From Helicobacter burdigaliensis (GTDB lineage Bacteria > Campylobacterota > Campylobacteria > Campylobacterales > Helicobacteraceae), in the NCBI RefSeq assembly GCF_003670295.1, contig NZ_QXJG01000002.1, forward strand, positions 62,001-126,000: a stretch of 64,000 bases of DNA, written 5' to 3'. A program made the translations under genes and the position numbers. The notes beneath the pieces were generated by a model that made no database searches, was not told the DNA's origin, and saw only the letters and a list, made by a program, of their open reading frames with translations. Every line of letters begins with the position of its first letter. The stretch's first letter is position 1. Below are positions 15,819 to 33,106 of this stretch, one piece after another.

Positions 15819-15829
15819 GGAGTAGAGCA

Positions 15830-16678: not shown

Positions 16679-16684
16679 AATTAG

Positions 16685-16705
16685 CTAGCCTTTAGGGCTA
16701 GTTTT
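16685..16705 (+). terminator. Terminator of the bc1 operon
   Basis: CTAGCC (16685-16690) pairs with GGCTAG (16696-16701) around TTTAG, followed directly by TTTT. It lies seven bases after the petC stop. Confidence 0.75.
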
Positions 16706-16739
16706 CTACACTTTCTTATTTAAAGCTTTCTTTTATGGG

Positions 16740-16755
16740 TATAATTTGCTATAAT
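16740..16755 (+). promoter_or_regulatory. Two -10 boxes before the fliN operon
   Basis: Two perfect TATAAT hexamers lie ten bases apart (16740-16745 and 16750-16755), 27 bases or more before the TTG start of the first gene. No sigma-54 or sigma-28 motif is evident, so the operon looks vegetatively transcribed. Confidence 0.55.
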
Positions 16756-16781
16756 CTTCTTAAAATAAAAAGGTGTGAGAG

Positions 16782-17198: not shown

Positions 17199-17210
17199 AG
17201 GAGTAGAAGT

Positions 17211-17570
17211 ATGCCAGCAGATGAATTTACGCTTGCCAAAATTCAAGCCCCTAAACAAGAAGATTTAGCGCGTTATTTAGAAGGAATTATTAATAATTAT
17301 GGCGGACTTTTGGATATGGGCGTAGTGTTTTGTGCAGAGCTTGGTGTTACAAAAATTCCCCTATTGGATATTTTGCGTTTTGAAAAAGGCTCTATAATTG
17401 ATTTACAAAAACCAGCAGGAGAGAGCGTAGAGATTTTTATTAATGGTAGAATTGTGGGTAAAGGTGAAGTTATGGTGTATGAAAAAAATCTCGCTATTCG
17501 CGTGAATGAGATTTTAGATTCTAATGCTATCATTTATTATCTTACGCGTGAAAGTATTGGTTCTGTATGA
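17211..17570 (+). CDS. fliN: Flagellar motor switch protein FliN
   Basis: C-ring protein that sets rotation direction and docks export cargo. The 119-residue product has the SpoA/FliN domain: LDMGVVFCAELGVTKIPLLDILRFEKGSIIDL followed by INGRIVGKGEVMVYEKNLAIRVNEIL. It has no N-terminal CheC-like half, so it is FliN and not FliY. It overlaps the next gene by four bases. Confidence 0.92.
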   Translation: MPADEFTLAKIQAPKQEDLARYLEGIINNYGGLLDMGVVFCAELGVTKIPLLDILRFEKGSIIDLQKPAGESVEIFINGRIVGKGEVMVYEKNLAIRVNEILDSNAIIYYLTRESIGSV

Positions 17571-18028
17571 AAATTTTATTTGTTGCGGTATTTTGTTGTC
17601 TTTTTGTGTTTGCGGAAACTAATCTCACAAAAGAAGAGATGGCTATTAAACAGTTACAATCACAAACACATTTAGACTATCAGGCAAAAATGCAAAAAGA
17701 AAGCAATCTCACTTTTCCTTTTGCTATGGCACAATCCCCTTTAGAATCTGTGAATAAATTTCAATATTTAGGCGTTATTTTTGTTCTTGCTTCGCTTCTT
17801 ATTTTTCTTTGGTATTTTAAAAAAAGAGCTAAGGGGAGGGGATTTGTGATGGGAAATAAAGCAGGTATTAAAATACTTTATGAAGCAAATCTTAACTTAA
17901 ATACCAAAATTGTCATTGTTCAAATACGTAAAATGTGTTATGTTTTAGCGATTAACTCTAATAATGTTGTTTTGCTTGATAAATATCAAGATTTTGAAGA
18001 ATGTTTAAAGCAAGAGAGTGAAAGATAA
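17567..18028 (+). CDS. FliO-like flagellar export component
   Basis: The 153-residue protein has a signal peptide (about residues 1-16), a periplasmic stretch, a single membrane helix (about 67-84), and a cytosolic basic domain after KKRAKG. That layout and the place directly after fliN match the short FliO proteins of Campylobacter and Helicobacter, which help assemble the FliPQR export gate. Sequence motifs alone are weak, so the call depends on layout and neighbours. Confidence 0.7.
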   Translation: MKILFVAVFCCLFVFAETNLTKEEMAIKQLQSQTHLDYQAKMQKESNLTFPFAMAQSPLESVNKFQYLGVIFVLASLLIFLWYFKKRAKGRGFVMGNKAGIKILYEANLNLNTKIVIVQIRKMCYVLAINSNNVVLLDKYQDFEECLKQESER

Positions 18029-18034
18029 AAATTT

Positions 18035-18850
18035 ATGCAAAGAAGAGCACTTTTTGCACTTTTTCTTTCTATTTTCTTACACATCTTAGTAATTTTTTTA
18101 ATTCTATTTGAATTTCCAAAAAAGGAATTTAATCAGCCAAAGCATGGAAACAATGAGGGTAAGCGTATTAATATTAAAGATTTTAAATTTTCTAAAGGAG
18201 CACAGCCACAAAATACAATAACTCCTAGTAATCCACAAAATCACACCCCACAAACCAACAAAACTCCAAGGATAGAAGAGGCTAGTAAAAAGCAAACTCC
18301 ACAAAAAGAACCCATTAAAAAAGAGGTAAAACAACCCAAAAAAGATCCCAAAAAACCTCTTAAAGAAAATGCAAAAGAGACACAGCAAGAGCTTATTAAA
18401 AATCTAAAAAACCCTACACAGCAACCTAAAAAATTAAGTTCTCCAAGTGCTTATGATATTAAGCCTAAAAATTCTAGTCCTTCTTTATATGAATATTCTA
18501 ATGATATGGCTTCTCAAGAGATTGAAGAGCTTTATGGAGAGGAACTTTACTCACTTTCTTTGGAAGAGAGAAAGTTTATTGAAGACAATCTAAGCAATAT
18601 AGGAAGAATCACGCAAAAGTATTTAAAATATCCTGAAGTAGCGGGTAAATTAGGACAACACGGGGATAATGTTGTGGAGTTTTATCTGCATCCAAATGGA
18701 GATATTACAGATTTAAGGCTTTTAACCCCAAGTGGTTACCGACTTTTAGATGATAATAGTGTTAAAACCATAGAAATAGCCTATAAAGACTACCCCTATC
18801 CAAGCGTAAAAACAAAAATTAGAATACGCGTGATGTATCGTATCTATTAA
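18035..18850 (+). CDS. TonB-like energy transducer
   Basis: The 271-residue protein has an N-terminal membrane anchor (about residues 5-25), a long Pro/Lys-rich linker (about 40-150) and a C-terminal TonB domain with VVEFYLHPNGDITDLRLLTPSGY and an end rich in beta-strand residues. It would transmit proton-motive force to outer-membrane receptors with ExbB/ExbD, which are not in this window. It is six bases behind the FliO-like gene and appears cotranscribed with motor genes. A TonB-dependent receptor lies at 48 kb. Confidence 0.85.
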   Translation: MQRRALFALFLSIFLHILVIFLILFEFPKKEFNQPKHGNNEGKRINIKDFKFSKGAQPQNTITPSNPQNHTPQTNKTPRIEEASKKQTPQKEPIKKEVKQPKKDPKKPLKENAKETQQELIKNLKNPTQQPKKLSSPSAYDIKPKNSSPSLYEYSNDMASQEIEELYGEELYSLSLEERKFIEDNLSNIGRITQKYLKYPEVAGKLGQHGDNVVEFYLHPNGDITDLRLLTPSGYRLLDDNSVKTIEIAYKDYPYPSVKTKIRIRVMYRIY

Positions 18851-18853
18851 AAG

Positions 18854-18927
18854 CTTTCGGCTTTCGGCTTTCGGCTTTCGGCTTTCGGCTTTCGGCTTTC
18901 GGCTTTCGGCTTTCGGCTTTCGGCTTT
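18854..18927. repeat. 7-bp tandem repeat, CTTTCGG x 10 plus CTTT
   Basis: Ten perfect copies of CTTTCGG (18854-18923) plus a partial copy sit exactly between the stop codons of the convergent tonB-like and mqnD genes. The last bases reach into the mqnD stop codon (18926-18928). The absence of mismatches suggests recent or ongoing slippage. Being outside both coding regions, length change would affect only the 3' ends of the two mRNAs. Confidence 0.97.
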
Positions 18928-19789
18928 AACTATTTCTTAAAGAACTATAATCTTTTGGGATAAGACAATCTTGTGTATGAATAAGTTGTGGATATATGCC
19001 TTTTTCATAACCAATTTTAAAAAGATTATCCAAAGCTTTGATTTGTAAAGGGCTTAGAGTTTTAGAATCTTCATTAGCATAAAGGTTTAAATAGTGTTCT
19101 AGCATTTTATCGCTCACTCGCACTAGATTGCGTTCTTGCAGCATTTTAGAAAGTAAAGGCTTGTGTTTGAGTGCTGTTGCAACAGCTTTGGTAAGAATGT
19201 CTTCTAGTTGAATGGCTAAACTTAGAGGGATAGAGCGTAAAATACACATTCCTCCAAGGGGGAGTGGCAACTCCTCTTTGTTTAGCTCACACCAAATATC
19301 CCAAATTTCCCTCTCTACTTCTAAGCTTTCATCAAAATTTAAAATGGATTCATGGATTAAAACCCCTGCATCTACTTCATCTTTTAGGATAGCTTGTTCT
19401 ATTTCTAGAAAATTTTTATAAACAATCCTTGCTTCTGGATAGGCAATTTTGAAAAGTAAAGCATTTGTGGTATGTTCCCCACTTAGAGCAACTTTGAAAT
19501 TCTTTTTAAGATTTTTAGAGCGTTTTTTTACAAGTTTTGGCCCATAGCCATTACCAAAACTAACCCCCGTTCGTAGCAGTGCTTGTTCTTTAAAAAGTAG
19601 CGGATATACACCAAAAGAAATAGCAGAAATATCCAAAAGATTTTCTAATGCCATTTTATTAAGCGTTTGAATATCTAATGCTTGATTTTTAAAGCTAATT
19701 CCCTCGCCAACCCAACCAAAAGCGATTGCATAATACATAAAAATATCATCTGCATCAGGTGAATGTCCTAAATTGATTATTTTTTTCAT
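18926..19789 (-). CDS. mqnD: 1,4-dihydroxy-6-naphthoate synthase (menaquinone, futalosine route)
   Basis: MqnD converts cyclic dehypoxanthinyl futalosine to dihydroxynaphthoate in the futalosine pathway of menaquinone synthesis, the route used by Helicobacter and Campylobacter. The 287-residue product starts MKKIINLGHSPDADDIFMYY; HSPDADD is the form of the MqnD N-terminal motif usual in this phylum. The two-lobed periplasmic-binding-protein-like fold fits the sequence. It is the last gene of the recA-led minus-strand run, 35 bases after the heptosyltransferase gene. Confidence 0.85.
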   Translation of the reverse strand: MKKIINLGHSPDADDIFMYYAIAFGWVGEGISFKNQALDIQTLNKMALENLLDISAISFGVYPLLFKEQALLRTGVSFGNGYGPKLVKKRSKNLKKNFKVALSGEHTTNALLFKIAYPEARIVYKNFLEIEQAILKDEVDAGVLIHESILNFDESLEVEREIWDIWCELNKEELPLPLGGMCILRSIPLSLAIQLEDILTKAVATALKHKPLLSKMLQERNLVRVSDKMLEHYLNLYANEDSKTLSPLQIKALDNLFKIGYEKGIYPQLIHTQDCLIPKDYSSLRNS

Positions 19790-19824
19790 AAATATCTCTT
19801 TGTAGTATTTTTAAAAGATTGTAG

Positions 19825-20838
19825 TTAAAAGTCGCTTATAAGGGATTGAATTTTAGAAATTACAAATTTTGGTTCTAAAGAGAGCATACATTGATGATAG
19901 GATTTATCATTTTTAGAAAGAGGGCAAGCGCGTTTTTTACAAGGCATACAAGCTAGAGGCTTTCCTAAGGTTTTTAAGGAGATGATATGGGCGTTTTTGG
20001 AACCAAAAGGAGAAGTTTCACTATCATTTGTAGGGCCAAAGATAGCAATCATAGGAATATTAAACGCAGCACCTATATGCATAGGACCACTATCATTAGT
20101 GATTAAGAGATTTAGTTTTGAAAAATAAGCTAAGAGGCTTTGAATATCTGTTTTACCACAAAGATTTAAAACTTCTTCTTTAAAATCCAAGAAAGAAAGA
20201 ATTTTTTGTGCAATTTCCTTTTCATTTTCTCCACCAAAAAGCAAGATTTTATATCCTTTTTGATGTAAAAATTCTGCTACTTTAGCAAAATTCTCTTCAC
20301 TCCAGCGTTTAGCACTTCCAAAGGCAGCCCCAGGATTAATCCCAGCAATCTTGTTTGTATTGTCTAAAAGAGGTAAAGGAATATTTGGCTTTTGTAGATA
20401 AAGTTTTGGTGTTAAATCTATATTTGCAAAAGGCTTTACCAGCTTAGCAAAAACCAAAACTTCATGTAAGGCTTTTTCTTTTTTAAAGCTATGAGTTAGC
20501 AAAAAAGAACGCATTTCATTTTTGTAGCCCACACGCACTTTTGCTTGATTGAAGTATAAAAAAAGAGCCGAAAGAAAATTGTTTTGAAAGCTAAAAGATA
20601 AATCACAAGGCGGGAGGGATTTAGCGAGTTTAAAAAGAGAGTAGATTCTACATTTTGCTTGCTTGCTTTTATCTTGTAAGGTTAGGGTGTTTTTGTGGTT
20701 ACTATAAAGCTCACAAGCCACTTTTGAACCTACAAGATAAAATCTAGCATTAGGATAGCTTTGGTAAAGTAGTTCTAATGCATAACTTGCCATGATGGCA
20801 TCTCCTAGCCAGTTAGGAAGACGGACTAAAATATTCAT
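19825..20838 (-). CDS. waaF: Lipopolysaccharide heptosyltransferase II
   Basis: Glycosyltransferase family 9 enzyme that adds heptose to the LPS inner core from ADP-heptose at the cytosolic face of the inner membrane. The 337-residue product has the N-terminal motif RLPNWLGDAIMASYALELL, the INPGAAFGSAKRW donor-binding motif, and NDSGPMHIGAAFNIPMIAIFG. The Cys-rich end (ACMPCKKRACPL) is typical of WaaF. It overlaps aroK by four bases. Confidence 0.88.
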   Translation of the reverse strand: MNILVRLPNWLGDAIMASYALELLYQSYPNARFYLVGSKVACELYSNHKNTLTLQDKSKQAKCRIYSLFKLAKSLPPCDLSFSFQNNFLSALFLYFNQAKVRVGYKNEMRSFLLTHSFKKEKALHEVLVFAKLVKPFANIDLTPKLYLQKPNIPLPLLDNTNKIAGINPGAAFGSAKRWSEENFAKVAEFLHQKGYKILLFGGENEKEIAQKILSFLDFKEEVLNLCGKTDIQSLLAYFSKLNLLITNDSGPMHIGAAFNIPMIAIFGPTNDSETSPFGSKNAHIISLKTLGKPLACMPCKKRACPLSKNDKSYHQCMLSLEPKFVISKIQSLISDF

Positions 20839-21326
20839 AAGGAATTTAAAACTGCTTTGCTTAGATTTTCTAAAGAATCTGTGCCATCTAAAGTGATTTC
20901 AGCACTTTTTTTATAAATCTTTTTGCGTTCTAAATAAAGTTTGTAGGCTTTATCTATATTGCTAAAAAGAGGGCGTTTTTCTATTTCTTTTTGATTCAAT
21001 CTTTTTAGGATTTCTTCAAATTCTAAATCAAGATAAAAAACTTTCCCCATTGTTTTTACATCGCATACAATAGGCATTCCTCCCCCTGTGGCGATGATAC
21101 AATTTTGTATATTTTGAGAGCAAAATTTACAAAATTCTTTTTCTAATTCTCTAAAATATTGTTCGCCTTTTGTGACAAAAATCTCATTAATATTTAGATT
21201 TTCATTATTTTGAATAATCTTATCGCTATCTAGAATCAAGCGTTTGCTTTGCTTGTAGAGGATTTTAGAAAGTGTGCTTTTGCCACTCCCCATAAAGCCT
21301 ATTAGGACGATATTAGTTGAGTTCAA
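20835..21326 (-). CDS. aroK: Shikimate kinase
   Basis: Phosphorylates shikimate in the chorismate pathway, which feeds the pheA product and folate. The 163-residue product has the P-loop GFMGSGKST (10-18), the substrate-binding IATGGGMP motif and the lid arginines in KEIEKRPLF. It overlaps the AMIN-domain gene by 14 bases and waaF by four. Confidence 0.92.
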   Translation of the reverse strand: MNSTNIVLIGFMGSGKSTLSKILYKQSKRLILDSDKIIQNNENLNINEIFVTKGEQYFRELEKEFCKFCSQNIQNCIIATGGGMPIVCDVKTMGKVFYLDLEFEEILKRLNQKEIEKRPLFSNIDKAYKLYLERKKIYKKSAEITLDGTDSLENLSKAVLNSL

Positions 21327-22071
21327 TTTCTAATCCCTCTTTTGTGGTTTTGAGGTTGTAGCTATATTGTCCATCTAGCATTAAGCTAATACGATAAAAG
21401 TCTAAATGGTTTTGCAAAGTCCCTTTTGTAACAATAGGGAGTTTTGTGGTAAATTTACTTTTTTGGGGTAAGCCATTTTTATTTTTAAAATCAAGAATTA
21501 AACGCATAGGAGAAGCTAGAGTAAAATCCCTAAGGAGCTTATATTTTGTTTTGATTTTAATTGTATTTTTATTAATATGCACGGAAAAGTCCTTCCCTAA
21601 AGTAAAATCAACTTTTGGGGGGGTTTGGACTTTGGGTTGCACTTCTTGAGATAAAATCAAAGGAAAATGCCAATCAATATCACCGCTTAATTCTTGTTCA
21701 ATATTTGAAAGAGAACCATCAAGATTTTGATAAGTTAGAGTAATTTTTGTAATCTTTCTTGCAGTGCTTGGAAGTTGTATTTGTGTTTTAGTAAAGAGGC
21801 TAAGTTCGGGTTGGTTGGAGATTAAACCACTTTCTTTTGGGGTGATTAAAGGAGTGAAAGGATTCCTTTCTTTAGAAGCGGTTTCTTGTGAGGCTTCTTT
21901 GGAAGAAGTTGTATTTTGTGTAGAAATTTCAATGGGTGCCATATTTTCAGTAGCAGTTTGCTTTTTGGTTGTATTGTTTTCTAAAACAATGGGTGGAACT
22001 TCAGGTAAAACCTTAGGTTCTACTGCAAATGCTAAAGTAAATAAACTAGTTAAAAGGATACTTTTTTTCAT
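21313..22071 (-). CDS. AMIN-domain periplasmic protein
   Basis: The 252-residue protein has a signal peptide (about residues 1-16), a low-complexity Thr/Glu/Pro linker to about residue 95, and a C-terminal beta-rich domain that resembles AMIN domains (TLASPMRLILDFKNKNGL; TKEGLEIELN). AMIN domains bind peptidoglycan or localise proteins at the septum in other bacteria. It overlaps the FtsB-like gene by four bases, which supports an envelope or division role. No catalytic domain is seen. Confidence 0.65.
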   Translation of the reverse strand: MKKSILLTSLFTLAFAVEPKVLPEVPPIVLENNTTKKQTATENMAPIEISTQNTTSSKEASQETASKERNPFTPLITPKESGLISNQPELSLFTKTQIQLPSTARKITKITLTYQNLDGSLSNIEQELSGDIDWHFPLILSQEVQPKVQTPPKVDFTLGKDFSVHINKNTIKIKTKYKLLRDFTLASPMRLILDFKNKNGLPQKSKFTTKLPIVTKGTLQNHLDFYRISLMLDGQYSYNLKTTKEGLEIELN

Positions 22072-22313
22072 TTTGGCTCCAATCCTTTGAGTTCAAAAAG
22101 TTCTTTTTGCAATCTTGCATTTTCATTCATGAGGCGATTAACTTCTGTTCTTATGGCTTCTTCTTTATTTTTGAGTTTGTAAAGCACACTCAAAGAATTT
22201 TCACCAAACAAAAGATTGCCAAAATAAAGCGCAAGAATGCACACTAATAAAATCAATGTTAAAAAAGGGAGCATTTTATAAAATCCCCCTTTGTTTTGAT
22301 AAATCTTATCCAA
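22068..22313 (-). CDS. FtsB/DivIC-like septum formation initiator
   Basis: Small bitopic protein of 81 residues: a short cytosolic N-terminus, one membrane helix (about 14-35) and a coiled coil (about 45-75, [25 protein letters not shown]). This is the layout of FtsB/DivIC proteins that link FtsQ and FtsL in the divisome. Overlaps eno by eight bases. Family proteins diverge strongly, so the name rests on layout and position. Confidence 0.65.
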
Positions 22314-23577
22314 AAAGTTTTTTTCCTAGATAGATGGGGTGTGCTAGCTCTTTTTCAATCGCTAAAAGTCTATTGTATTTTGCCATTCTCTCGCTTCTTG
22401 CAGTAGAACCGGTTTTAATTTCTCCTGTATTTAGCGCAACTGCAAAATCAGCGATGAAGCTATCTTCACTCTCTCCACTTCTATGGCTCATAATGCATTT
22501 ATAGTTATTTCTTTGAGCTAGGCGGATAGTTTGCATAGTTTGTGAGATTGTGCCGATTTGGTTAGGTTTAATCAAAACCGCATTTGCAATATTTTTGCTA
22601 ATCCCTTCTTCTAAAATTTTTGCATTCGTTACAAAGAGATCATCGCCTACTAATTGAATCTTGTTCCCAAGTTTTTTTGTGAGCTTAGCCCAGCCTTCCC
22701 AATCATCTTCACTTAGTCCATCTTCGATGGATACAATAGGATATTTGTTGATTAAGTTTTCATAATATTCTATCAACTCTTCACTATTTAGCTTTTTATT
22801 TTCTCCCTTTAGGTGATAGATTCCATTTTCATCTACAAACTCGCTACTAGCGACATCTAAGGCAATTGCAATTTGTTCTCCCTCTTTATATCCTGCTCTT
22901 TTTACTGCTTCTAAGATTACAGCGATAGGTTCTTCGTTATTTTTTAGATTAGGGGCAAATCCACCCTCATCGCCAATGCTTGTAATATGCTTATTTTCAT
23001 TAAGTAGCTTTTTTAGGTGTTGGTATATCTCAGCACTTGCTCTCATAGCCTCACTGAAGCAGTCAAATCCCACAGGCATAATCATATATTCTTGAAAATC
23101 CACGGTATTATCTGCATGGCTTCCACCATTGATGATATTTAACATAGGAGTGGGTAGAGTTAGAGCATTTGCACCACCTAAATAGCGATAAAGCGGGATG
23201 TTTAAGCTTTTGGCTGCCACTCTAGCTAGAGCCATAGAGACGCCTAAAGTCGCATTTGCACCAAGTTTTGAGAAGTTATCTGTCCCATCAAGCTCTATTA
23301 AAAGATTATCAATAGCACTTTGATCATAAGGGCTTAGTCCGATGAGCTCTTCAGCGATTGTGGTATTGACATTTTCCACAGCTTTTAAAACGCCTTTTCC
23401 AAGGTAGCGACTATCTCCATCGCGTAACTCTAAAGCCTCTCTTTTACCAGTGCTTGCACCACTAGGGACAATCGCACTAGCAGAGCTTCCATCGCTTAAT
23501 AAAATAGTTGTTCTGATAGTAGGATTCCCTCTGCTATCTAGGACTTCTTGTGCTTGTATATCATCTATATAATTCAT
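22306..23577 (-). CDS. eno: Enolase
   Basis: Glycolytic and gluconeogenic enzyme interconverting 2-phosphoglycerate and phosphoenolpyruvate. The 423-residue product is full length, with the substrate-binding SHRSGESED, metal-binding [11 protein letters not shown] and GDDLFVTN motifs, and the N-terminal [11 protein letters not shown]. It follows recA after 18 bases, an order also known from Helicobacter pylori. Confidence 0.97.
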
Positions 23578-23595
23578 TCTTTCTCCTTTGAAATT

Positions 23596-24636
23596 TTATG
23601 CTTCTTGTTCTTCTTCATCTCCACCATTAGATAAATCATCTGTGATAGAGATAGAAGCTTTGATTTTATCTTCAATTTCTTTTGCAATTTCTTTGTTTTC
23701 TTTTAGATAGGCTTTTGCATTTTCTTTGCCTTGTCCGAGCTTTTTATCTCCATAGCTAAGCCATGCACCACTTTTATCTACAATATCTAGCTTCACGCCA
23801 TAGTCAATTAGCTCACCTTCTTTGCTAATCCCTTCGCCAAACATAATATCAAACTCTGCTCCTCTAAAGGGTGGAGCAACTTTATTTTTAACCACTTTAG
23901 CTTTTACGCGGTTACCGATATTTTGTTCGCCCTGTTTTAGGGTGGCTACGCGTCTTACATCAATTCTTACACTTGCATAGAATTTTAGTGCATTACCACC
24001 TGTGGTAGTTTCAGGGCTTCCATATCCCATTACACCTATTTTCATACGGATTTGGTTGATGAAAATTACTGTTGTATTCATTTTGTGAATCACGCCGGTA
24101 ACTTTACGCAAAGCTTGGCTCATAAGTCTTGCTTGAAGCCCTACATGCTGATCGCCCATATCTCCTTCAATCTCGCTTTTTGGAGTGAGTGCTGCAACAG
24201 AGTCAATTACGATTAAATCCACCCCACCACTTCTTGTAAGTGTTTCTAGAATCTCTAAGGCTTGTTCTCCAAAGTCAGGTTGAGAAACAAGTAAATTTTC
24301 TACATCTACCCCAAGTCTTTTAGCGTAGGTTACATCTAGTGCGTGTTCTGCGTCAATAAAAGCACAAATGCCACCATTTTTTTGGCATTCTGCTACAATT
24401 TGTAAGGCTAAAGTTGTCTTACCAGAGCTTTCAGGACCATAAACTTCTATAATTCTCCCTTTTGGGATACCGCCAATCCCTAATGCAATATCTAAGCCCA
24501 AAGAGCCTGTGCTAATCGCATCAATTTTTTCTACGGGCTTATCGCCAAGTCTTATGAGAGCACCTTTACCAAAGGCTTTATCAATTTGTTTGATAGCAAG
24601 CTCAATCGCTTTTTGCTTATTTTCATCTAGTGCCAT
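23596..24636 (-). CDS. recA: Recombinase RecA
   Basis: DNA strand-exchange and SOS coprotease protein. The 346-residue product has Walker A GPESSGKT (67-74), Walker B LIVIDS, and the conserved loop [19 protein letters not shown]. The C-terminus is acidic (GGDEEEQEA), as usual. No LexA box is recognised upstream. First gene of the run recA-eno-FtsB-like-AMIN-aroK-waaF-mqnD. Confidence 0.98.
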
Positions 24637-24711
24637 CTATTCTCCATATTTTGTGGGTTGTTATTGCAAGATTTGATGAAGCAAATCAAGGCAAACTAAA
24701 ATAAAAGCTTT

Positions 24712-24717
24712 ATTCTA
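24712..24717 (-). promoter_or_regulatory. -10 box for recA
   Basis: On the minus strand TAGAAT lies 75 bases before the recA start. No matching -35 or SOS operator was seen. Confidence 0.4.
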
Positions 24718-24826
24718 ACAAAAAAACAATAAAATTAGCGTAATTTTTTAGATTTTGGCTTTCAAAATAATTTTTTAAAAATTTATAAATAAAAAATAAT
24801 AAATTAAAATTTAAAAAATTTCATAA

Positions 24827-24832
24827 TATAAT
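24827..24832 (+). promoter_or_regulatory. Upstream -10 box of the G-tract ORF
   Basis: A perfect TATAAT, 88 bases before the ATG at 24921. A second TATAAT lies at 24868-24873, inside an inverted repeat. If this upstream one is used, the inverted repeat is transcribed as a leader hairpin. Confidence 0.4.
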
Positions 24833-24855
24833 TCCAAAATCAAAATTAAGTATCC

Positions 24856-24884
24856 TTTATGTAAATTTATAATATTTACATAAA
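24856..24884 (+). promoter_or_regulatory. 11-bp dyad enclosing a -10 box
   Basis: TTTATGTAAAT (24856-24866) and ATTTACATAAA (24874-24884) are perfect inverted repeats separated by seven bases. The second TATAAT (24868-24873) lies in the spacer. A dimeric repressor bound here would block the promoter. Alternatively it is an mRNA hairpin made from the upstream -10 at 24827. Confidence 0.5.
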
Positions 24885-24920
24885 TTTTTAAATTAGATTT
24901 CATTTTATTAAGGAGGTTTT

Positions 24921-25283
24921 ATGTATTTTTTAAATCTTAATACCTCTTCTCCTAAAATACTGCGGGGGGGGGGGCATTCTAGCTCTTTATTAACCCCTTC
25001 TTCTACTTTTTATCCCTATACACATACAAATCTTACAAATAAACTTTTATTTAAAACTAAAACAAACGCTATAAATAAATACAAACTCCTTGTCTTATTT
25101 TTGTTGTTGCAAGGAGTTAAGCAGAAGCATACAAGAGAAGCATTATCCACAAGCAAAGTGAAGTACAAATCTATTCTTTTGTTTTGCAGGGTTATTTCTA
25201 TCATTGCGAGCAAATATACAATATTTGCGTGGCATACAAGCAAGGCAGAGTGCAAATCTGAAAAGAATAACCAAAAATTTTAA
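24921..25283 (+). pseudogene. Truncated ORF with G11 tract; probable remnant of a phase-variable surface protein
   Basis: A very strong ribosome binding site (AAGGAGG, 24910-24916) precedes ATG 24921. The ORF runs 120 codons with a G11 tract (24964-24974) at codons 15-18. One G more or one less gives a stop within a few codons, so 11 is the open setting. Around residues 53-65 the protein has a basic-then-hydrophobic segment (NKYKLLVLFLLLQG) that looks like a signal peptide behind an N-terminal extension, a layout I associate with large autotransporter-type proteins. After it the frame runs into repeat-like sequence with no recognisable domain. I read it as the 5' end of a lost gene; a short real gene is the alternative. 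Confidence 0.5.
24964..24974 (+). repeat. Homopolymeric G11 tract
   Basis: Eleven consecutive Gs, 43 bases inside an ORF, in an AT-rich region where the next longest G run in the window is about six. Tracts of this length slip readily in Campylobacter and Helicobacter and act as on/off switches. Confidence 0.95.
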
Positions 25284-25450
25284 ACTATCTCCAAAGAAAC
25301 AATCTACAATTTTTATTTGTGGCGGTGTGATTCCATTAGTGTGTAAGCAATCTTTCAAAAGGCTACTCCTAAATCGCTTTTTATATAAAGTTTTTTCGCT
25401 CTCTGTCATTGCAAGCAGTGCTTGCACTGTGTTTTGCTTCTTGTAGTAAT

Positions 25451-25470
25451 AAGTGAGTATCTCACTTTTT
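25451..25470 (+). terminator. Possible terminator after the G-tract ORF
   Basis: AAGTGAG (25451-25457) pairs with CTCACTT (25461-25467) around TAT, and the T run continues to 25470. It lies 168 bases after the current stop of the truncated ORF. Confidence 0.45.
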
Positions 25471-25607
25471 AAAAAAATCATAATTAATATTTTAAACTTT
25501 GTTTTGTTAAGTAGTCGCTATATTTTCATCGTTTTAAGCTTGTTTTATTGTCTTTTAAAGATACAAAAAGGAATTAATAATAATTTTTGTAATTTCACTA
25601 AAAGCTC

Positions 25608-25664
25608 TTGTTTTAGTTTCAAAGAGAAACTAAAACAAACACATAATATAAATTTAATGTGTTT
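25608..25664. repeat. 13-bp hairpin followed by an 8-bp inverted repeat
   Basis: TTGTTTTAGTTTC (25608-25620) and GAAACTAAAACAA (25626-25638) are perfect inverted repeats with the loop AAAGA. Immediately after, AAACACAT (25637-25644) pairs with ATGTGTTT (25657-25664). There is no T run after either, so a plain terminator is unlikely. Confidence 0.6.
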
Positions 25665-26052
25665 CTAGTTAAACCCCATTTAACTTAGACTTAAAGCAGT
25701 ATTTTATTGAGAATACACAAAAATTCTTTAAAAGGTCTTTTATTTTGCCTTTTGAGGATAATCAAATTTATTTTCTATTAACTAAAAATCAAAATTCTTT
25801 TGTAAAATTTTAGATTGCTACGATTTGTTTTCATAAATCTTGCAATGATTAGGTAGAGGGCATTTGATTGCTCTTTTTAGATTTGTGCTGTACTTTGCTT
25901 GTAAGGCAATGCTTTGTTTGCGGTGAAGCTTTACTGCTTTTTGTAAAAAACTTTCAAGAGCTTTCAGGTTCTATTGCCACTACCAAAATTTAATTTTTTG
26001 CTTTTTGGGATTTTGCAGTCTTGAAATCATACAGCTATTTAAATAGGTTAAT

Positions 26053-26071
26053 TTAAGGCTTGAAGCCTTAA
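26053..26071 (-). terminator. Hairpin at the end of the oxidoreductase gene
   Basis: TTAAGGCT and AGCCTTAA form a perfect 8-bp stem with a 3-base loop. On the minus strand the stop codon of the oxidoreductase gene (26068-26070) lies in the first arm. The T run after the stem is weak (TTAAATTAACC), so termination efficiency is unsure. Confidence 0.45.
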
Positions 26072-27027
26072 GAAAGTTTAGAGTTTATCTCTTGGACAAT
26101 GTGGAATCCATGATTTAATGCAGCAGCAATCGAGCCTCCATTTTTATATAAAATATCTCCAGCGATATAAATTTTTTCTACAGAGCTTTGGTGGTTTTCA
26201 TCAATCTTTGGCACACCATTTTCATCAAGTTCTAAGCCACATTTTTTAAGAAAATCTATGGGCGCCATTCCGCCAATTGCGTAAATAATTCTATCAAAGA
26301 CGCTTGAGCTACCATCAGTAAAATTAACCTTAGGTTTGCCATTTTCATCTTCTAAGCTTTCAATATCTATGCCCAGTTTTGGAGTAATTTTGCCAGAATT
26401 GATACAATTTTGTAGGTTTTCTTTGTTGATTTGATTGATTCTTGAAAACTCATTGCGGCGGTAGTTTAGTGTAAGAGGATTGCTTTCGCTTAAAACACAA
26501 GCATATTCCACAGCAGAGTTTCCGCCCCCTACGACTAAAATGTGTTCATTAGGTAAAACACTATTAGGATTAAAATTAACTAAAGAGCGGATAGAAGAGG
26601 GGATGGGGTAGGAAGGTTTATTAGGTTGTCCCATTTTGCCAATAGAAATAATAATAAATCTTGCTTTAATTTCCGTATTGTTTGTCGTGTGGATTACAAA
26701 GAGATCTCCTTCTTTTTGTATAGATTCTACTTCTGTTTGGAATTTCGCTTCAAAATAATTTTTTTGAATAATCTCATCAAAAAGATCTAAAGTGCTTTCT
26801 TTTGTGCCATCGCAAAAATAGATATTGCCATTTAGCTCTATTTTTTGCCCTTTGTAGTCTTTATCTACGCGTTTGTTGTCTTTGTAGAATTTTCTAATTG
26901 TGGTGGAATGTCCCTCACCTTTTTCAAATAAAATCACATCTTTAATGCCTAAAATAACAGATTCTACCGCAGAAGCAATGCCTCCAGGTCCTCCTCCAAT
27001 GATTGCGATATTATAAATTTTACTCAT
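26068..27027 (-). CDS. FAD-dependent pyridine nucleotide oxidoreductase, YpdA-like
   Basis: The 319-residue protein has an N-terminal FAD-binding motif (IIGGGPGGIASA), a second Rossmann motif for NAD(P)H (VVGGGNSAVEYA) and a C-terminal FAD motif (IYIAGDILYKNGGSIAAAL). The CxxC redox pair of thioredoxin reductase is missing, as in the YpdA-type enzymes. The substrate in this group is not known to me. Overlaps ccoS by four bases, which links it to respiration or redox maintenance. Confidence 0.75.
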   Translation of the reverse strand: MSKIYNIAIIGGGPGGIASAVESVILGIKDVILFEKGEGHSTTIRKFYKDNKRVDKDYKGQKIELNGNIYFCDGTKESTLDLFDEIIQKNYFEAKFQTEVESIQKEGDLFVIHTTNNTEIKARFIIISIGKMGQPNKPSYPIPSSIRSLVNFNPNSVLPNEHILVVGGGNSAVEYACVLSESNPLTLNYRRNEFSRINQINKENLQNCINSGKITPKLGIDIESLEDENGKPKVNFTDGSSSVFDRIIYAIGGMAPIDFLKKCGLELDENGVPKIDENHQSSVEKIYIAGDILYKNGGSIAAALNHGFHIVQEINSKLS

Positions 27028-27221
27028 TTTGTATCCTTTTTATTAGGTTTTGTATTTGCAGCATGTTGTAAATCTTCAGGAGAGTCAAATAAAACACCTT
27101 GCATCATCTTTTTTTCATCATCAAATTGACCATTTTTTAGTCCCCATACAAATGCAATAAGTCCTAAAAGTCCGATAATGATAGAGGTGGCAAGCATAAT
27201 AGCTACCATAGTGGTATTCAT
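27024..27221 (-). CDS. ccoS: cbb3-type cytochrome oxidase assembly protein CcoS
   Basis: A 65-residue inner-membrane protein with one helix (about residues 5-27) followed by FVWGLKNGQFDDEKKMMQGVLFD, the CcoS signature (W-x-x-x-x-G-Q-F-D-D). CcoS is needed for cofactor insertion into cbb3 oxidase. The cbb3 structural genes are not in this window. Nine bases after maf. Confidence 0.9.
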   Translation of the reverse strand: MNTTMVAIMLATSIIIGLLGLIAFVWGLKNGQFDDEKKMMQGVLFDSPEDLQHAANTKPNKKDTK

Positions 27222-27230
27222 TTTTACTCC

Positions 27231-27773
27231 TTAAAGAAAAGTTTTTAGAACTTCAATGTTCAAACCTAAAGCATTAGTGCTTGAGCCTATCTGCTTTTTA
27301 ACATAGCGAGAATGGAAGCCCTCACACATAATGCAACCTGCTTTATTTTGCCAAAGATTGCTTGAAAGATAATCTTCTAAATCTTTGTCTTGAAATTTTT
27401 CAAATTCATAGTAAGTTGCACTAATGTCAATAAAAAATTTACTTTGCGAGTGATAAATCATACAAGTTAGAATACTAAGGCAGTTGCCACTTTGGGCGTT
27501 TAAAAACTCTCTTGCCTCGCTTAGATTTTTTGCTTTTCTTTGTAGGTTTCCCTCCATCATTACCACGCTATCTGCTATTAAAAGAGGTAAAGAAAGTCCA
27601 TAGACTTCTTTAGCGTTTTGGTGTTTTCCTAAGGTTGCATAATAAACAAAATCTTTGGGATTATCCGTTTTTATGCTTTCTTCATCAAAAGAATTATCGC
27701 ATTGGATAAAAGGTATATTATGTGCCCTTAAAAGAGAACTTCTTATTTTAGAAGCAGAACATAATCTAAGCAT
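27231..27773 (-). CDS. Maf-family nucleotide pyrophosphatase
   Basis: Maf proteins hydrolyse non-canonical or modified nucleoside triphosphates. The 180-residue product starts MLRLCSASKIRSSLLRAHNIPF, matching the family L-x-S-x-S-x-x-R motif, and has LLIADSVVMMEGN (usual core D-T-V-V) and IGSSTNALGLNIE near the end. The first gene of the three-gene minus-strand run maf-ccoS-oxidoreductase. Confidence 0.85.
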   Translation of the reverse strand: MLRLCSASKIRSSLLRAHNIPFIQCDNSFDEESIKTDNPKDFVYYATLGKHQNAKEVYGLSLPLLIADSVVMMEGNLQRKAKNLSEAREFLNAQSGNCLSILTCMIYHSQSKFFIDISATYYEFEKFQDKDLEDYLSSNLWQNKAGCIMCEGFHSRYVKKQIGSSTNALGLNIEVLKTFL

Positions 27774-28027
27774 TTTCCTAACTTTTGTATAAAATAAAAC
27801 TTCTCATTATACTATTTTTTTGCTAACAAATCTTAAAACTTAAATATTTAAAAGTAAATTTTTATAGCTTCGTGTTTAAAGATAAAAATTTTAAAAATCT
27901 AAATTCAACTTGTATTTATAAAAATAATGCTAATATACTCTTTTAATTTAAGCTATATTTAATATTTTGTTGCGATTAATATTGAATTTATAGAAAATTT
28001 ATTTAAAAAATAAAATAGAGGATTTAA

Positions 28028-28948
28028 ATGAATAAGATAGAAAATTTTATACAAAGATTAAGGAGTGAAAAAAAGTGCTTCACTTATGAGTTTTCTGTTC
28101 CTATGAGTTTTAGTTTAGAAGAGAATTTTAAGCTTTTAGAAAAGAGTAAAATTTTAGATAAAATTGATGCTTTTGTTTGCACGGATTCTCCTTTGGCAAA
28201 ATTAAAGCATAATTCGCTTCTTGCAAGTTTAAAATTGCAAAGTTATTTTAATATCCCCTCTATTACTACAATGACAATGAGAGATAAAAATACTCTTGCT
28301 TTGCAAAGTGAGCTAATTGGTATGAATAGTCTTGATTTACGCCTTATTTTGGCTTTAACGGGTGATCCTCTAAGGCATGGGAATCAAATTCAAGCAAGAC
28401 CTGTTTTTGAGGGAAATAGTCAGTTGCTTTTAAAGATTATTGCACAATTAAACTCTAAAAAAGATATTAACGATAATGATATTTTAGGGGAAAATAAACC
28501 TATTTACGCTTTTAGTGTTTTGAATGCTTATGCAAACAATAAAGACAATCTTTATAAAAAAATGTATGATAAGGTTAAAAATGGGGCTAATGCAATCTTT
28601 ACACAACCTGTTTATGATTTGCAAAATGCTAAAGAATTGCTAGGTTTTATGGATTCTATCAATAAAGAATTGCAAAAAAAATGTATTTTGGTATTGGGGT
28701 TTTTCCCTATTACAACTTACAAAACAGCACTTTTTTTGCACAATAAGCTTCCGGGTGTTTTTGTGCCAAAAGATTGGCTTTTGGAGCTAAAAGAAGTGCA
28801 AGGTTTAGAAGATGAAAAGAAAGTTGGCTTACAAAAAAGCAAAAAACTTTTTGAAGATTTGGTAAAGATTCATCCAAAAATTCACATTATGAGTGCAAAT
28901 AAACTAGAAGTGATTGAAAAAATCTTAGAGGAATTATGCTACAATTAG
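28028..28948 (+). CDS. metF: Methylenetetrahydrofolate reductase
   Basis: Flavoenzyme that makes 5-methyltetrahydrofolate for methionine synthesis. The 306-residue product has the family features FTYEFSVPMSFSLEENF near the start, LALTGDPLRHG, and NGANAIFTQPVYD. The start follows AGAGGATTTAA. The three-base gap to the FtsW-like gene suggests cotranscription. Confidence 0.88.
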   Translation: MNKIENFIQRLRSEKKCFTYEFSVPMSFSLEENFKLLEKSKILDKIDAFVCTDSPLAKLKHNSLLASLKLQSYFNIPSITTMTMRDKNTLALQSELIGMNSLDLRLILALTGDPLRHGNQIQARPVFEGNSQLLLKIIAQLNSKKDINDNDILGENKPIYAFSVLNAYANNKDNLYKKMYDKVKNGANAIFTQPVYDLQNAKELLGFMDSINKELQKKCILVLGFFPITTYKTALFLHNKLPGVFVPKDWLLELKEVQGLEDEKKVGLQKSKKLFEDLVKIHPKIHIMSANKLEVIEKILEELCYN

Positions 28949-28951
28949 CAA

Positions 28952-30109
28952 ATGGTTGATCGTTCTTTATTTTTGGCAACTACTTGCCTTATAACTATTA
29001 GCATTATTTTTTCTTATTCGCTTTCAAGTTTTGCTGTGCTGTATTATGGTTATAATTCCTTTCATTTTTTTCTAAGGCAACTTATTGCGGGGATTTTAGG
29101 CATTTTTCTTATGGGTTGGATTTCAAGGAGGAATCCTGATGCTTATGTTGTGAAATTTGGCTTTTTTTTATTTTTTGGTGGAATTTTTTTGATGTTTATT
29201 ATGCATTTTTTACCAGAAAGCCTTGCAACAAGCGCAGGAGGTGCGAAGCGTTGGATTAGGCTACCTTTTTTTTCTTTGGCGCCTGTGGAGTTTTTTAAAA
29301 TAGGTTTTGTATTATTTTTAGCATGGAGTTTTTCAAGGAAATTTTCACTTTTAGAACAAAAAACTATTAAAGAAGAATTTTTAACCTTTTTGCCTTATGT
29401 TGGAATCTTTTTAATTGCGGTTTATTTAATTGCAATTTTGCAAAACGATCTTGGGCAAATCGTGCTTTTAGGAATGACTTTAGCACTTATGATGATTTTT
29501 GCTGGGAGTAGTTTTCGCTTTTTTCTTATGCTTTTAGTGGGGGCTTTTAGTCTTTTTTTTATAGTGATTATTACAAGCACACATAGGATTATGCGTATTA
29601 AAGCTTGGTGGGCGGGGACACAAGATTTTATTTTATCTTTATTGCCAGCTTTTGTGCAAAATTCTCTAAGGGTAGAAAATCTCCCTGAACCTTATCAGAT
29701 TCAATATTCTTTAAGTGCGATTGAAAATGGGGGATTTTTAGGTAAAGGGCTTGGAAATGGGCTTGTAAAGCTTGGTTTTTTAAGTGAGGTGCATACGGAT
29801 ATTATTTTAGCGGGAATCACTGAAGAGATTGGATTTTTGGGGTTATTTTTTGTAGTTTGTATTTTTGTATTTATGTTGTTTAGGATTTTTAGGATTGCTA
29901 TTCGCTCTCAAAATACTATTTATTATCTTTTTTGTTCGGGAATCGGGCTTATTTTGGGCTTTTCTTTTTTAATCAATGCTTTTGGAATTGCAGGTATTAT
30001 TCCTATTAAGGGGATTGCTGTGCCATTTTTAAGCTATGGAGGAAGCTCGCTTCTTGCAAGTTGTATTATGATTGGTATGGTGTTATCCATCAGCAAAAAA
30101 ACCAAATAA
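28952..30109 (+). CDS. ftsW: FtsW/RodA-family lipid II polymerase, probably FtsW
   Basis: SEDS-family peptidoglycan glycosyltransferase of the inner membrane. The 385-residue product has about ten hydrophobic segments, the AGGAKRWIRLPFFSLAPVEFFKIGF block, LQNDLGQIVLL with the catalytic aspartate, and GIAVPFLSYGGSSLLA near the end. FtsW and RodA are hard to separate; the division form is favoured because no pbp2/mre gene is adjacent. Confidence 0.8.
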   Translation: MVDRSLFLATTCLITISIIFSYSLSSFAVLYYGYNSFHFFLRQLIAGILGIFLMGWISRRNPDAYVVKFGFFLFFGGIFLMFIMHFLPESLATSAGGAKRWIRLPFFSLAPVEFFKIGFVLFLAWSFSRKFSLLEQKTIKEEFLTFLPYVGIFLIAVYLIAILQNDLGQIVLLGMTLALMMIFAGSSFRFFLMLLVGAFSLFFIVIITSTHRIMRIKAWWAGTQDFILSLLPAFVQNSLRVENLPEPYQIQYSLSAIENGGFLGKGLGNGLVKLGFLSEVHTDIILAGITEEIGFLGLFFVVCIFVFMLFRIFRIAIRSQNTIYYLFCSGIGLILGFSFLINAFGIAGIIPIKGIAVPFLSYGGSSLLASCIMIGMVLSISKKTK

Positions 30110-30125
30110 CTTTAAGGCTTTTTGC

Positions 30126-30133
30126 TATACAAT
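30126..30133 (+). promoter_or_regulatory. -10 box for lysA-pheA
   Basis: TATACAAT preceded by TGC, 36 bases before the lysA ATG, in the 60-base gap after ftsW. No -35 is evident. Confidence 0.45.
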
Positions 30134-30169
30134 ATACACCTTTTGTAAAAATTATTTTTTAGGAAGATT

Positions 30170-31426
30170 ATGGAACGAATTATTTTAAGCAATGAACCCA
30201 CATTAAGCGGTAATTTTACCAAAGAAAATTTAAATAAAGTTGCTAAAAACTATGGAACTCCTCTTTATGTTTATGATTTTGATAAGATAGAAGAGTATTA
30301 TAAACAATTAAAAGCGGCATTTTTAGGGAGAAAAGCACTTATTTGCTATGCTTTAAAAGCAAATTCTAATCTTAGTTTAGTGCAAAAATTAGCAACTTTG
30401 GAAAGTGGTGCAGATTGTGTATCCATAGGGGAAGTTAAAAGGGCTTTGATTGCTGGGATTCCAAAGTATAAAATTATTTTTAGTGGTGTAGGAAAAAAAG
30501 ATAGTGAGATTAAAGAAGCTTTAGAACTTGATATTTTGTTTTTAAATCTTGAAAGTAAAGAAGAACTTTTTAGGGTAGAAAAAATTGCTAAAGAGCTAGG
30601 AAAGAGTGCAAGAATTTCTGTGCGTGTGAATCCTAATATAGATCCACAAACTCACCCTTATATTTCCACAGGATTGCAAGAAAATAAATTTGGCGTTAGC
30701 ATTGAAGTGGCAAAAGAAATGTATGTGTATGCAAAAAATTCTCCCTATTTAGAGCCCATTGCCATTCATTTTCATATAGGTTCGCAACTCACACAATTAG
30801 AACCTATAAGAGAATCGGCTAAAAAAATAGCCTCTTTAGCCCATAGTCTTATTGCCTTAAAAATTGATTTGAAGTTTTTTGATATAGGAGGGGGGCTAGG
30901 CATCACTTATAAAGATGAAAAGATTATTCAACCCTATGATTATGCACAAAGTATTTTAGAAGCATTAAAAGGGCTTGATTTGACGATTATTTGCGAACCC
31001 GGACGCTTTTTGGTTGGAAATTGTGGAGTGTTTTTAAGCAGTGTTTTATATGAGAAAAAAACCGATAAAAAACGCTTTGTAATTATTGATGGGGCGATGA
31101 ATGATCTAATCCGTCCTAGTCTTTATAATGCTTATCATAAAATTGTTGCCTTAAAAGAAGGGGAACAAACAAAAGCAGATGTAGTGGGGCCTGTGTGCGA
31201 GAGTGGAGATTTTTTGGGTAAAGATATTTCTTTACCTTCTTTGGAGCATAATGATATTTTATGTGTGATGAGTGCAGGTGCGTATTGTGCGAGTATGAGT
31301 AGTAACTATAATACACGCTTAAAATGTGCTGAAGTTGCTTTTGAAAAAGGGCGAGAAAGGCTTATAAAAAGAAGAGAGAGTTTTGAAGAGATTGTTCAAA
31401 ATGAAAAAGAATTGATGCAAAAATAA
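30170..31426 (+). CDS. lysA: Diaminopimelate decarboxylase
   Basis: PLP enzyme for the last step of lysine synthesis. The 418-residue product has the PLP lysine Lys63 in YALKANSN, the HFHIGSQ and GGGLGITY motifs, EPGRFLVG, and the active-site CESGDFLGK. Full length. Ribosome binding site AGGAAG. Nine bases before pheA. Confidence 0.96.
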   Translation: MERIILSNEPTLSGNFTKENLNKVAKNYGTPLYVYDFDKIEEYYKQLKAAFLGRKALICYALKANSNLSLVQKLATLESGADCVSIGEVKRALIAGIPKYKIIFSGVGKKDSEIKEALELDILFLNLESKEELFRVEKIAKELGKSARISVRVNPNIDPQTHPYISTGLQENKFGVSIEVAKEMYVYAKNSPYLEPIAIHFHIGSQLTQLEPIRESAKKIASLAHSLIALKIDLKFFDIGGGLGITYKDEKIIQPYDYAQSILEALKGLDLTIICEPGRFLVGNCGVFLSSVLYEKKTDKKRFVIIDGAMNDLIRPSLYNAYHKIVALKEGEQTKADVVGPVCESGDFLGKDISLPSLEHNDILCVMSAGAYCASMSSNYNTRLKCAEVAFEKGRERLIKRRESFEEIVQNEKELMQK

Positions 31427-31435
31427 GGGGTTAAA

Positions 31436-32503
31436 ATGGATTTAAGAGCATTTAGAGAAGAAATTGATGGGATTGATAACACGCTTGTAGAGCTTTTAGA
31501 GAAGCGTATGGAGATTGTAAAAAAGATAGGCAAAGCAAAGCTAAAAAGCAAAGCCCCTATTTATCGTCCTGATAGAGAAAAAGAAATTCTTGATAGACTA
31601 GGAGCTAAACCTCTTTCTCTTCTTAATAAAAATGCAATCGAATCTATTTTTTTAGAAATTTTTGCAGTAAGTAGAAATTTAGAATTGCCAGAGCGTGTTT
31701 CTTATCTTGGTCCTCTTGGAAGCTATACGCATCAAGCAGCTGAAAGTCGCTTTGGTGCGATGTGTGAGTATTTGCCTTGCAACACTATTGCATCAACCCT
31801 AAAAAGTGTAGAGGATGGGCGTGCAAATTATGCTGTAATCCCCATAGAAAACAACCAAAATGGTGCAGTAGGAGAAACGCTAGATTTATTAAAAAATACA
31901 GAATTAAAGATTGTTGCTGAAATTTATATGCCAATCCATCATTGTTTTGCTAGTCTTTCCTCTAATATTAAAGAAATTAAAGTGCTTTATTCTAAGGATA
32001 TTGCTTTTGGACAATGTTCGCAATTTTTAAGTGAACACAGCTTAGATCATATTGAAAAAATCCCTGTTGATTCCACAGCACGTGCTGCCCAACTTGCTTC
32101 AAGCGATGCAAAATGTGCTGCTATTTGTTCGCATATTGCTGCAAAATTGTATAATACACCTATTTTGTTTAATAATATTGAAAATAATTCTACCAATAAG
32201 ACCCGTTTTATTATTGTAAGTAATTTCAAAAACCAAAAAAGCACACAAGATAAAACTTCTATTTTTGCAAATCTATCGCATACAAATAAACCAGGTGCAC
32301 TTTATAATTTGCTTTATGATTTAAAGGATTTAAATATCAATATGACTTCTATTCAATCACGCCCTAATATGCAAAATGATGGAGAATTTAGCTATTGCTT
32401 TTTTATAGATATTGATGGGCATATAGAGGATGAAAATATAAAAGAGCTTTTTTTGCGTTATGGGGATAAGCTAAAATGGCTTGGAAGTTATTTGAAAAAT
32501 TAA
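31436..32503 (+). CDS. pheA: Bifunctional chorismate mutase/prephenate dehydratase
   Basis: Two-step enzyme toward phenylalanine. The 355-residue product has an N-terminal AroQ chorismate mutase domain (about 1-85; LRAFREEIDGIDNTLVELLEKR), a prephenate dehydratase domain (about 90-265; YLGPLGSYTHQAAESRFG and NKTRFIIV) and a C-terminal ACT domain (NKPGALYNLLYDL and ESRP-like IQSRP) for feedback by phenylalanine. Cotranscribed with lysA. Confidence 0.95.
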   Translation: MDLRAFREEIDGIDNTLVELLEKRMEIVKKIGKAKLKSKAPIYRPDREKEILDRLGAKPLSLLNKNAIESIFLEIFAVSRNLELPERVSYLGPLGSYTHQAAESRFGAMCEYLPCNTIASTLKSVEDGRANYAVIPIENNQNGAVGETLDLLKNTELKIVAEIYMPIHHCFASLSSNIKEIKVLYSKDIAFGQCSQFLSEHSLDHIEKIPVDSTARAAQLASSDAKCAAICSHIAAKLYNTPILFNNIENNSTNKTRFIIVSNFKNQKSTQDKTSIFANLSHTNKPGALYNLLYDLKDLNINMTSIQSRPNMQNDGEFSYCFFIDIDGHIEDENIKELFLRYGDKLKWLGSYLKN

Positions 32504-32536
32504 ACCCAATAAGTAAAGGGATAATCACCAAAATTT

Positions 32537-32545
32537 TGCTATAAT
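32537..32545 (+). promoter_or_regulatory. Extended -10 box for fliL-acpS
   Basis: TGCTATAAT is an ideal extended -10, 27 bases before the fliL ATG. No sigma-28 or sigma-54 site is recognised, so fliL appears vegetatively transcribed. Confidence 0.6.
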
Positions 32546-32572
32546 ATAAAAATTTTTTTAATAAGGGAAATT

Positions 32573-33103
32573 ATGGCTGAAGTTGAAGAAGAGAAAAAAG
32601 AATCCAAACTAGCAGGTTTAAAACAAAATAAAATGATACTTTTTATTATCATTGGAGTTGTTGCATTACTTTTAGTTGTTTTGATTGTTGTGGCTATTTT
32701 GATTTTTAGTGGGGGTGATGAGAAACCAGAAGCCCAGCAACAGCCTCAAGTAGCACAGCAAGCAGGTGGTGTACAAGGAGGAGGTAATCTTCTTAGCGTG
32801 GGGCAAATGTATCCTGTGGATCAGTTTATAGTGAATCTTATGACTTCAGGGGGAGGCAAGCGTTATCTAAAGACTTCTATATCTTTAGAACTTAGTGCTC
32901 CTACTTTGCAAACAGAGCTAGATACAAAAAGAGATATTATTCGTGATACTATTATTACTATTTTAAGTTCTAAGACTTTAGAAGAGATTCAAACCACTAA
33001 AGGCAAACAAAAATTAAGAGCTGAAATACAAGAACGTATTAATGAGTTTTTGGTAGATGGTAGAGTGGTAAATATTTTCTTTACAGAGTTTGTGGTTCAA
33101 TAA
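32573..33103 (+). CDS. fliL: Flagellar basal body-associated protein FliL
   Basis: Inner-membrane protein around the stator ring that supports motor torque. The 176-residue product has a short charged cytosolic N-terminus, one membrane helix (about 21-46), a Gln/Gly-rich linker and a periplasmic domain with VDQFIVNLMTSGGGKRYLKTSISLE and the usual NIFFTEFVVQ end. The neighbour is acpS, three bases on. Confidence 0.9.
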   Translation: MAEVEEEKKESKLAGLKQNKMILFIIIGVVALLLVVLIVVAILIFSGGDEKPEAQQQPQVAQQAGGVQGGGNLLSVGQMYPVDQFIVNLMTSGGGKRYLKTSISLELSAPTLQTELDTKRDIIRDTIITILSSKTLEEIQTTKGKQKLRAEIQERINEFLVDGRVVNIFFTEFVVQ

Positions 33104-33106
33104 AAT

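Follow-up and report, generated by a model that had tools for sequence, protein, structure and literature searches.

A poly-G head without a tpsA body at a rearrangement junction of Helicobacter burdigaliensis, probably an orphaned 5' module of a phase-variable gene family

The locus between recA and the oxidoreductase gene

The stretch of DNA considered here (64 kb, hereafter the window) belongs to the 1.8-Mb assembly of Helicobacter burdigaliensis, which consists of 62 contigs; between recA and the gene of an NAD(P)/FAD-dependent oxidoreductase it carries a short module composed of promoter-like hexamers, a dyad, a ribosome binding site and a leader ORF with a poly-G tract in its 5' part (Table 1). 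The dyad, the AAGGAGG, the ATG, the G11 tract and the ORF of 120 aa are all found where the initial annotation had placed them. The tract, which begins 43 nt past the first base of the ATG, is the only run of G or C of at least 8 in the 64-kb window, and a single phase of it opens the long frame; indeed, the ORF extends over 120 codons with 11 G and stops after 19–24 codons with 9, 10, 12 or 13 G, so that the tract is, as had been claimed, kept in its only open setting. Past the tract the frame remains open for 102 codons, a length reached by 0/1000 dinucleotide shuffles (mean 13.9). The fading of the coding sequence into repeat debris could also be recognized, in the form of remnants of the repeat E0 and of the palindromic element IR1, the latter being dispersed across the genome.

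Table 1. Position of the features of the locus within the window
Feature	Position	Strand	Basis or remark
recA (flank)	23596..24636	-	protein 99% identical in H. valdiviensis
Segment between conserved flanks, synteny breakpoint with respect to H. valdiviensis	24748..26046		blastn of the H. valdiviensis recA and oxidoreductase regions stops at 24747 and resumes at 26047
Shared left part of module, promoter-like hexamers TTAAAA-17-TATAAT	24786..24855 (hexamers 24804-24832)	+	consensus scan 10/12
Exact match to C3a	24842-24900		59 nt
Dyad TTTATGTAAAT-TTATAAT-ATTTACATAAA	24856..24884	+	11-bp arms; operator or 5'-UTR stem-loop
Exact match to C60	24909-24959		51 nt
Ribosome binding site AAGGAGG	24910..24916	+	sequence
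Leader ORF, 120 aa with the tract as assembled (G11)	24921..25283 (ATG 24921, stop 25281-25283)	+	
Exact match to C61	24961-25002		42 nt
G11 contingency tract	24964..24974	+	
Conserved post-tract core HSSSLLTPSSTFYPYTHTNLTNKLLFK	24975..25057	+	both other frames shut within ~5 codons; 73-nt exact match to C10 leader
Exact match to C10	24983-25055		73 nt
E0 repeat remnant (CATTGCGAG-type)	25249..25289	+	stop due to a single base that differs from paralogue C3a
Remnants of palindromic element IR1	25311..25396		
NAD(P)/FAD-dependent oxidoreductase (flank)	26068..27027	-	found in 19/19 genomes of the genus

Two of the features had been interpreted further. The dyad, described as operator-like, is present and is conserved in copies of Helicobacter valdiviensis (nearly identical in C77/C72), and within the H. 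burdigaliensis genome it is identical in the copies C3a and C23; a 5'-UTR stem-loop is, however, an equally likely interpretation, and other paralogues (C60, C62b and C61) have different dyads at the same position. The supposed signal-peptide-like segment does not stand: the hydrophobic run corresponds to residues 53–67, derives from the repeats, lies too far from the N-terminus and is not hydrophobic in the paralogues. An N-terminal signal peptide in the window ORF was accordingly rejected, the true one, of type KRTLSISIVASILLSNQLVLA, belonging to the tpsA that follows the head at intact loci; neither a signal peptide nor the TPS domain (PF05860/TIGR01901) is present in the window ORF or segment. 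In the window segment no known RNA family came near its gathering score, and no plasmid relatives of the leader were found.

Copies of the head and the tpsA genes behind them

A search of the same genome with the window head returned matches on C3 (E 1e-97), C10, C60, C23, C62, C19, C22, C61 and C2. Dispersed copies of the 5' module carrying a tract of the same family number 12, the window copy included; the others are C3a (C3:207), C10, C60, C23, C62b (C62:61.8k), C19, C22b (C22:29.8k), C61, C3b (C3:16.4k), C62a, located at the start of C62 and running off the contig, and C2, whose contig begins within the tract. Three further contigs (C12, C1 and C27) terminate within the promoter part or the 5' UTR; the left part of the module (24786..24855 in the window) is found ahead of these three, of C3a, C10, C60 and C62b, and at several places in H. 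valdiviensis. The tract measures G11–G13 among the paralogues, and wherever the 5' part of a copy can be read one phase only gives a long frame (that of C62a runs off the contig in the phase analysis). An end point conserved at 120 residues is absent, the leader ORF being 52 aa long in C23 and 102 to ~210 aa elsewhere. Long poly-G tracts occur elsewhere too, at L050 (C2) 931–941 and 1627–1639 and in L058 (C3), in settings that seem unrelated, and the genome holds many candidate contingency loci; contigs C2 and C9 (starts of L078 and L049) begin with ~70 C, probably an artefact of assembly or of sequencing at a poly-G tract.

In seven heads (C10, C19, C61, C62b, C23, C2 and C3b) a tpsA gene, of the two-partner-secretion, filamentous-haemagglutinin type, lies 0.3–0.9 kb 3' of the module on the same contig, and the linked genes start with a signal peptide of the type mentioned above. 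The body is complete for two of them, with 1074 aa in C2 and 1051 aa in C3b; for the remaining five the contig ends 42–76 codons into the gene, as expected of repeated bodies. Both complete products carry TIGR01901, the filamentous-haemagglutinin N-terminal domain, which is present also in the product of the C51 gene, and that of C2 carries in addition the TPS domain PF05860; they are therefore TpsA exoproteins, and the genome also encodes TpsB-type transporters (PF03865). An identity as autotransporter or barrel protein, suggested at the outset, is excluded by the TPS/FHA N-terminal domain of the linked genes. As a separate observation, at L085 (H. valdiviensis C51) 3–2060 a head is found directly 3' of a gene with an autotransporter-barrel-like C-terminus, and heads may sit between surface-protein genes.

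The relationship between tract and gene differs among the genomes compared, which included H. valdiviensis WBE14, H. pullorum NCTC 12824 and the sisters G002, G003 and G004. A leader ORF distinct from the structural gene, and 5' of it, holds the repeat tract at C10 and C19, where the leader ends 13 nt before the tpsA ATG, at C3b, and on contig 3 of H. valdiviensis, where the leader is 262 aa long and ends 21 nt before the ATG; the window copy has no structural gene. H. valdiviensis has five heads, all pointing towards contig ends, with tpsA following a head on at least one contig. A tract inside the tpsA frame, 31 nt past its ATG, is instead what H. pullorum, G002, G003 and G004 have, and one phase alone opens 537–672 codons. 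The tract of G002 is G14, the same arrangement as proposed for HCAN_0344 of Helicobacter canadensis, a poly-G gene with a filamentous-haemagglutinin domain and G14 at its 5' end, considered by the authors a strong candidate for phase variation provided that translation begins at the start codon preceding the tract (PMC2823697). Common to the window family and HCAN_0344 is a G tract where a TPS-type gene begins; in HCAN_0344, however, the tract belongs to the tpsA frame or coincides with its start, whereas the head of the window family is a separate ORF, multicopy, and bodiless at the window (PMC2823697). The tpsA with in-frame poly-G of H. pullorum and the other sisters is a classic contingency gene, and the separate leader ORF is a trait of H. 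burdigaliensis and H. valdiviensis; the position, the tract and the shared tpsA family suggest that the leader arose by splitting of the fused type. As for a homologue sharing the first 65 residues, none was found as a single ORF, but a homologous head precedes tpsA as a separate one.

The breakpoint and the origin of the orphan head

Colinearity with H. valdiviensis is distributed over two contigs, C130 matching the window from 14000 to 24747 and C75 from 26050 to 33455, each on one side only, so that the joint between them falls exactly on the head locus; the flanks of the orphan heads C60 and C22b are likewise found on different H. valdiviensis contigs. A recA within 1.5 kb after the oxidoreductase gene was not found in 17 readable sisters, and with TpsA proteins as queries no TpsA fragment was detected in the window or at the other orphan loci. 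In H. valdiviensis the oxidoreductase gene is followed by trpB, and in H. burdigaliensis trpB precedes the tpsA-linked head C61, an arrangement which points, without proof, to exchange between tpsA loci.

The reading that we favour, with a probability of roughly 0.7, is that the window locus is an orphaned, recombined 5' module of the phase-variable tpsA family, left at a rearrangement junction. The window head is multicopy, is linked to tpsA elsewhere, has no body here, lies at the breakpoint and is a patchwork of its paralogues; the idea, as first proposed, that a phase-variable surface protein has left its 5' end here without the body finds support in the tpsA genes behind seven other heads, in the H. 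valdiviensis contig, in the in-frame poly-G of the sisters, in the lack of a TpsA fragment and in the breakpoint. The ancestral arrangement would be that of the sister species, with the poly-G in an N-terminal extension of tpsA and slippage switching the adhesin directly; in H. burdigaliensis and H. valdiviensis repeat-rich filler would have parted the poly-G start from tpsA, turning it into a leader ORF that ends before a new ribosome binding site and ATG. At the window site, recombination at the junction of a chromosome rearrangement may then have fused the head, on the recA side, to unrelated DNA on the oxidoreductase side, with the tpsA body and its upstream stem-loop (see below) missing as the outcome. 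We infer that the body was lost rather than never there; since no empty site for a head insertion was found in the relatives, where the flanks are arranged differently, body loss and spread of heads alone are not separable. The window copy probably has no present function. Against an orphan remnant it counts that dyad, ribosome binding site and start are preserved, together with an unbroken G11 in its open phase, features which a long-dead remnant would tend to lose. It also counts that three other heads without tpsA keep long post-tract frames (98–176 codons), and that a complete body is known for two linked heads only.

A rival proposal is that orphan heads are kept as a recombination reservoir, as gene-conversion partners supplying promoter, start and tract segments to the tpsA-linked heads. 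Consecutive segments of the window head match four different paralogues exactly (Table 1), and the segment identities show promoter, start and post-tract types re-assorted between copies, a patchwork which supports past recombination between heads; the recombining end suggested by the initial annotation is to this extent upheld on circumstantial grounds. Past exchange does not, however, demonstrate a maintained role, and the identities are short (at most 73 nt, a single assembly being compared), so that a reservoir kept as such appears improbable. Truncated units of a comparable kind are known from Neisseria meningitidis, in which tpsC cassettes related to tpsA are able to recombine with it (PMC3848433); those cassettes, however, are truncated at the N-terminus and lie downstream of tpsA in one island, whereas the Helicobacter orphans are 5' heads scattered round the genome (PMC3848433).

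Slightly less probable still is a mobile module, a small non-autonomous element carrying promoter and switch from site to site: a left edge (~24784) is indeed common to several copies that lie at unrelated loci in two species, but an unsystematic look revealed neither a shared right edge nor terminal inverted repeats nor target duplications, and insertion at an empty site is not demonstrable, the tested flanks of the orphans not being adjacent in relatives and lying on different H. valdiviensis contigs.

That the leader ORF encodes a functional phase-variable small protein, independent of tpsA, is very unlikely, despite post-tract frames open over 79–227 codons in 12/13 copies, orphans included, against shuffle means of ~8–19. 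These long frames are due in part to the palindromic elements IR1 and IR2, which make up much of the leader ORF, occur also between genes and are open by themselves; for this reason, openness beyond shuffles is no proof of selection. The two elements are seen at L002 610–910 and at many other loci of the genome, in either orientation and open in the leader frame both ways; none was found in H. valdiviensis. Palindromic repeats inside reading frames are also known from the Rickettsia palindromic elements; the likeness drawn here is one of description, and the Helicobacter repeats differ in filling a leader ORF and in being intergenic as well. No constraint on the leader protein could be detected: dN/dS ranges from 0.49 to 0.95 with little bias at third codon positions, gap lengths in DNA alignments are not clearly multiples of three, and the absence of stops in leader pairs, for which 0.9–3.2 stop-creating changes are expected per pair, is not surprising (P 0.04–0.41, marginal in one pair only). 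Moreover, length and C-terminus vary widely, and no Pfam or NCBIfam match to the leader exceeds the cut-off.

An assembly artefact joining the recA and oxidoreductase contigs via the repeated head, which the many heads at contig ends would suggest, is very unlikely, because no other copy is identical to the window head over more than 73 nt at a stretch; besides, copy-specific sequence lies on both sides of every shared patch in the contig, and 25480–26046 contains no match to the palindromic elements.

The stem-loop ahead of tpsA and the possible control of the gene

All seven tpsA-linked heads, and two loci of H. valdiviensis, have a stem of 20–22 bp with an invariant TCCCCATTT loop 5' of tpsA. 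The same loop occurs on stems of other sequence at C51 and C79, both tps loci. Covariation is observed in that both members of stem pairs differ when V1 (contig 1 of H. valdiviensis) is compared with the other copies. Searched for at the window and the other orphan loci, the stem-loop is absent, and a terminator or attenuator of the tpsA-locus type is thereby rejected for the window. The open-phase leader frame includes the stem-loop in C10, C19, C3b and V64, and ends 155–406 nt short of it in C62b, C23, C2 and C61. A run of six T does not follow the stem, C10, C19 and C61 having TATTTTAATC and the others ATTAAA or AAAAAC; because of this, and of its presence also ahead of a tpsA without poly-G head (C51), the stem-loop may serve another role. 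Stem-loops with the invariant loop YTCCCCATTT and covarying stems are found near tps genes at L214 (C51) 7861–7922 and L217 6634–6695, both on the minus strand, L003 2104–2165 and L102 1388–1443. At C51 and C79 the RNA directly after the stem (AATGGGGAAAG and ATGGGGAAGAG, respectively) could form a pseudoknot with the loop; in principle, the C-rich loop could also meet poly-G runs.

A precedent for such an arrangement is pil1 of Streptococcus gallolyticus, where phase variation in a leader peptide is combined with attenuation, the frame setting how far ribosomes travel (PMC3894217). The likeness consists in a simple-repeat tract within a leader ORF of its own, which precedes the gene for a surface protein and is separated from it by a stem-loop; pil1 differs in its GCAGA repeats, in serving Gram-positive pili and in having an intrinsic terminator that is supported by experiment and possesses a T run (PMC3894217), whereas the stem-loop of the intact Helicobacter loci lacks a clear T run, is putative in its effect and is missing from the window copy. 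On the pil1 model (PMC3894217), the phase of the tract in intact loci would set whether translation of the leader carries ribosomes across the repeat-rich RNA and the stem-loop as far as the tpsA start, a translated leader leading to coupling or to blocked termination. Control of tpsA by leader translation in the intact loci, via coupling or via a hairpin-containing RNA kept open, is put forward tentatively, as a possibility on the unlikely side; such a mechanism cannot fit all copies as assembled, because in C62b, C23, C2 and C61 the frame stops before the stem-loop. A little more speculative is the wider proposal that the two Helicobacter species turned a directly phase-variable tpsA into a multicopy two-part switch, in which poly-G leader and C-loop stem-loop would control the translation or transcription of TpsA, with orphan heads spread by recombination as interchangeable switch parts.

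In the usual picture of contingency genes, the repeat lies within the gene or its promoter. The detached poly-G leader with stem-loop and tpsA is a variant of the known contingency genes; in the window family the head of such a gene is detached from its body, in about a dozen copies, and sits at rearrangement joints where this was tested. Annotation pipelines would probably label the heads hypothetical proteins and so miss a possible switching of the downstream adhesin. The intact loci offer a testable Gram-negative counterpart of leader-ORF phase variation, for which the literature searched gave one worked-out case, that of the S. gallolyticus pili.
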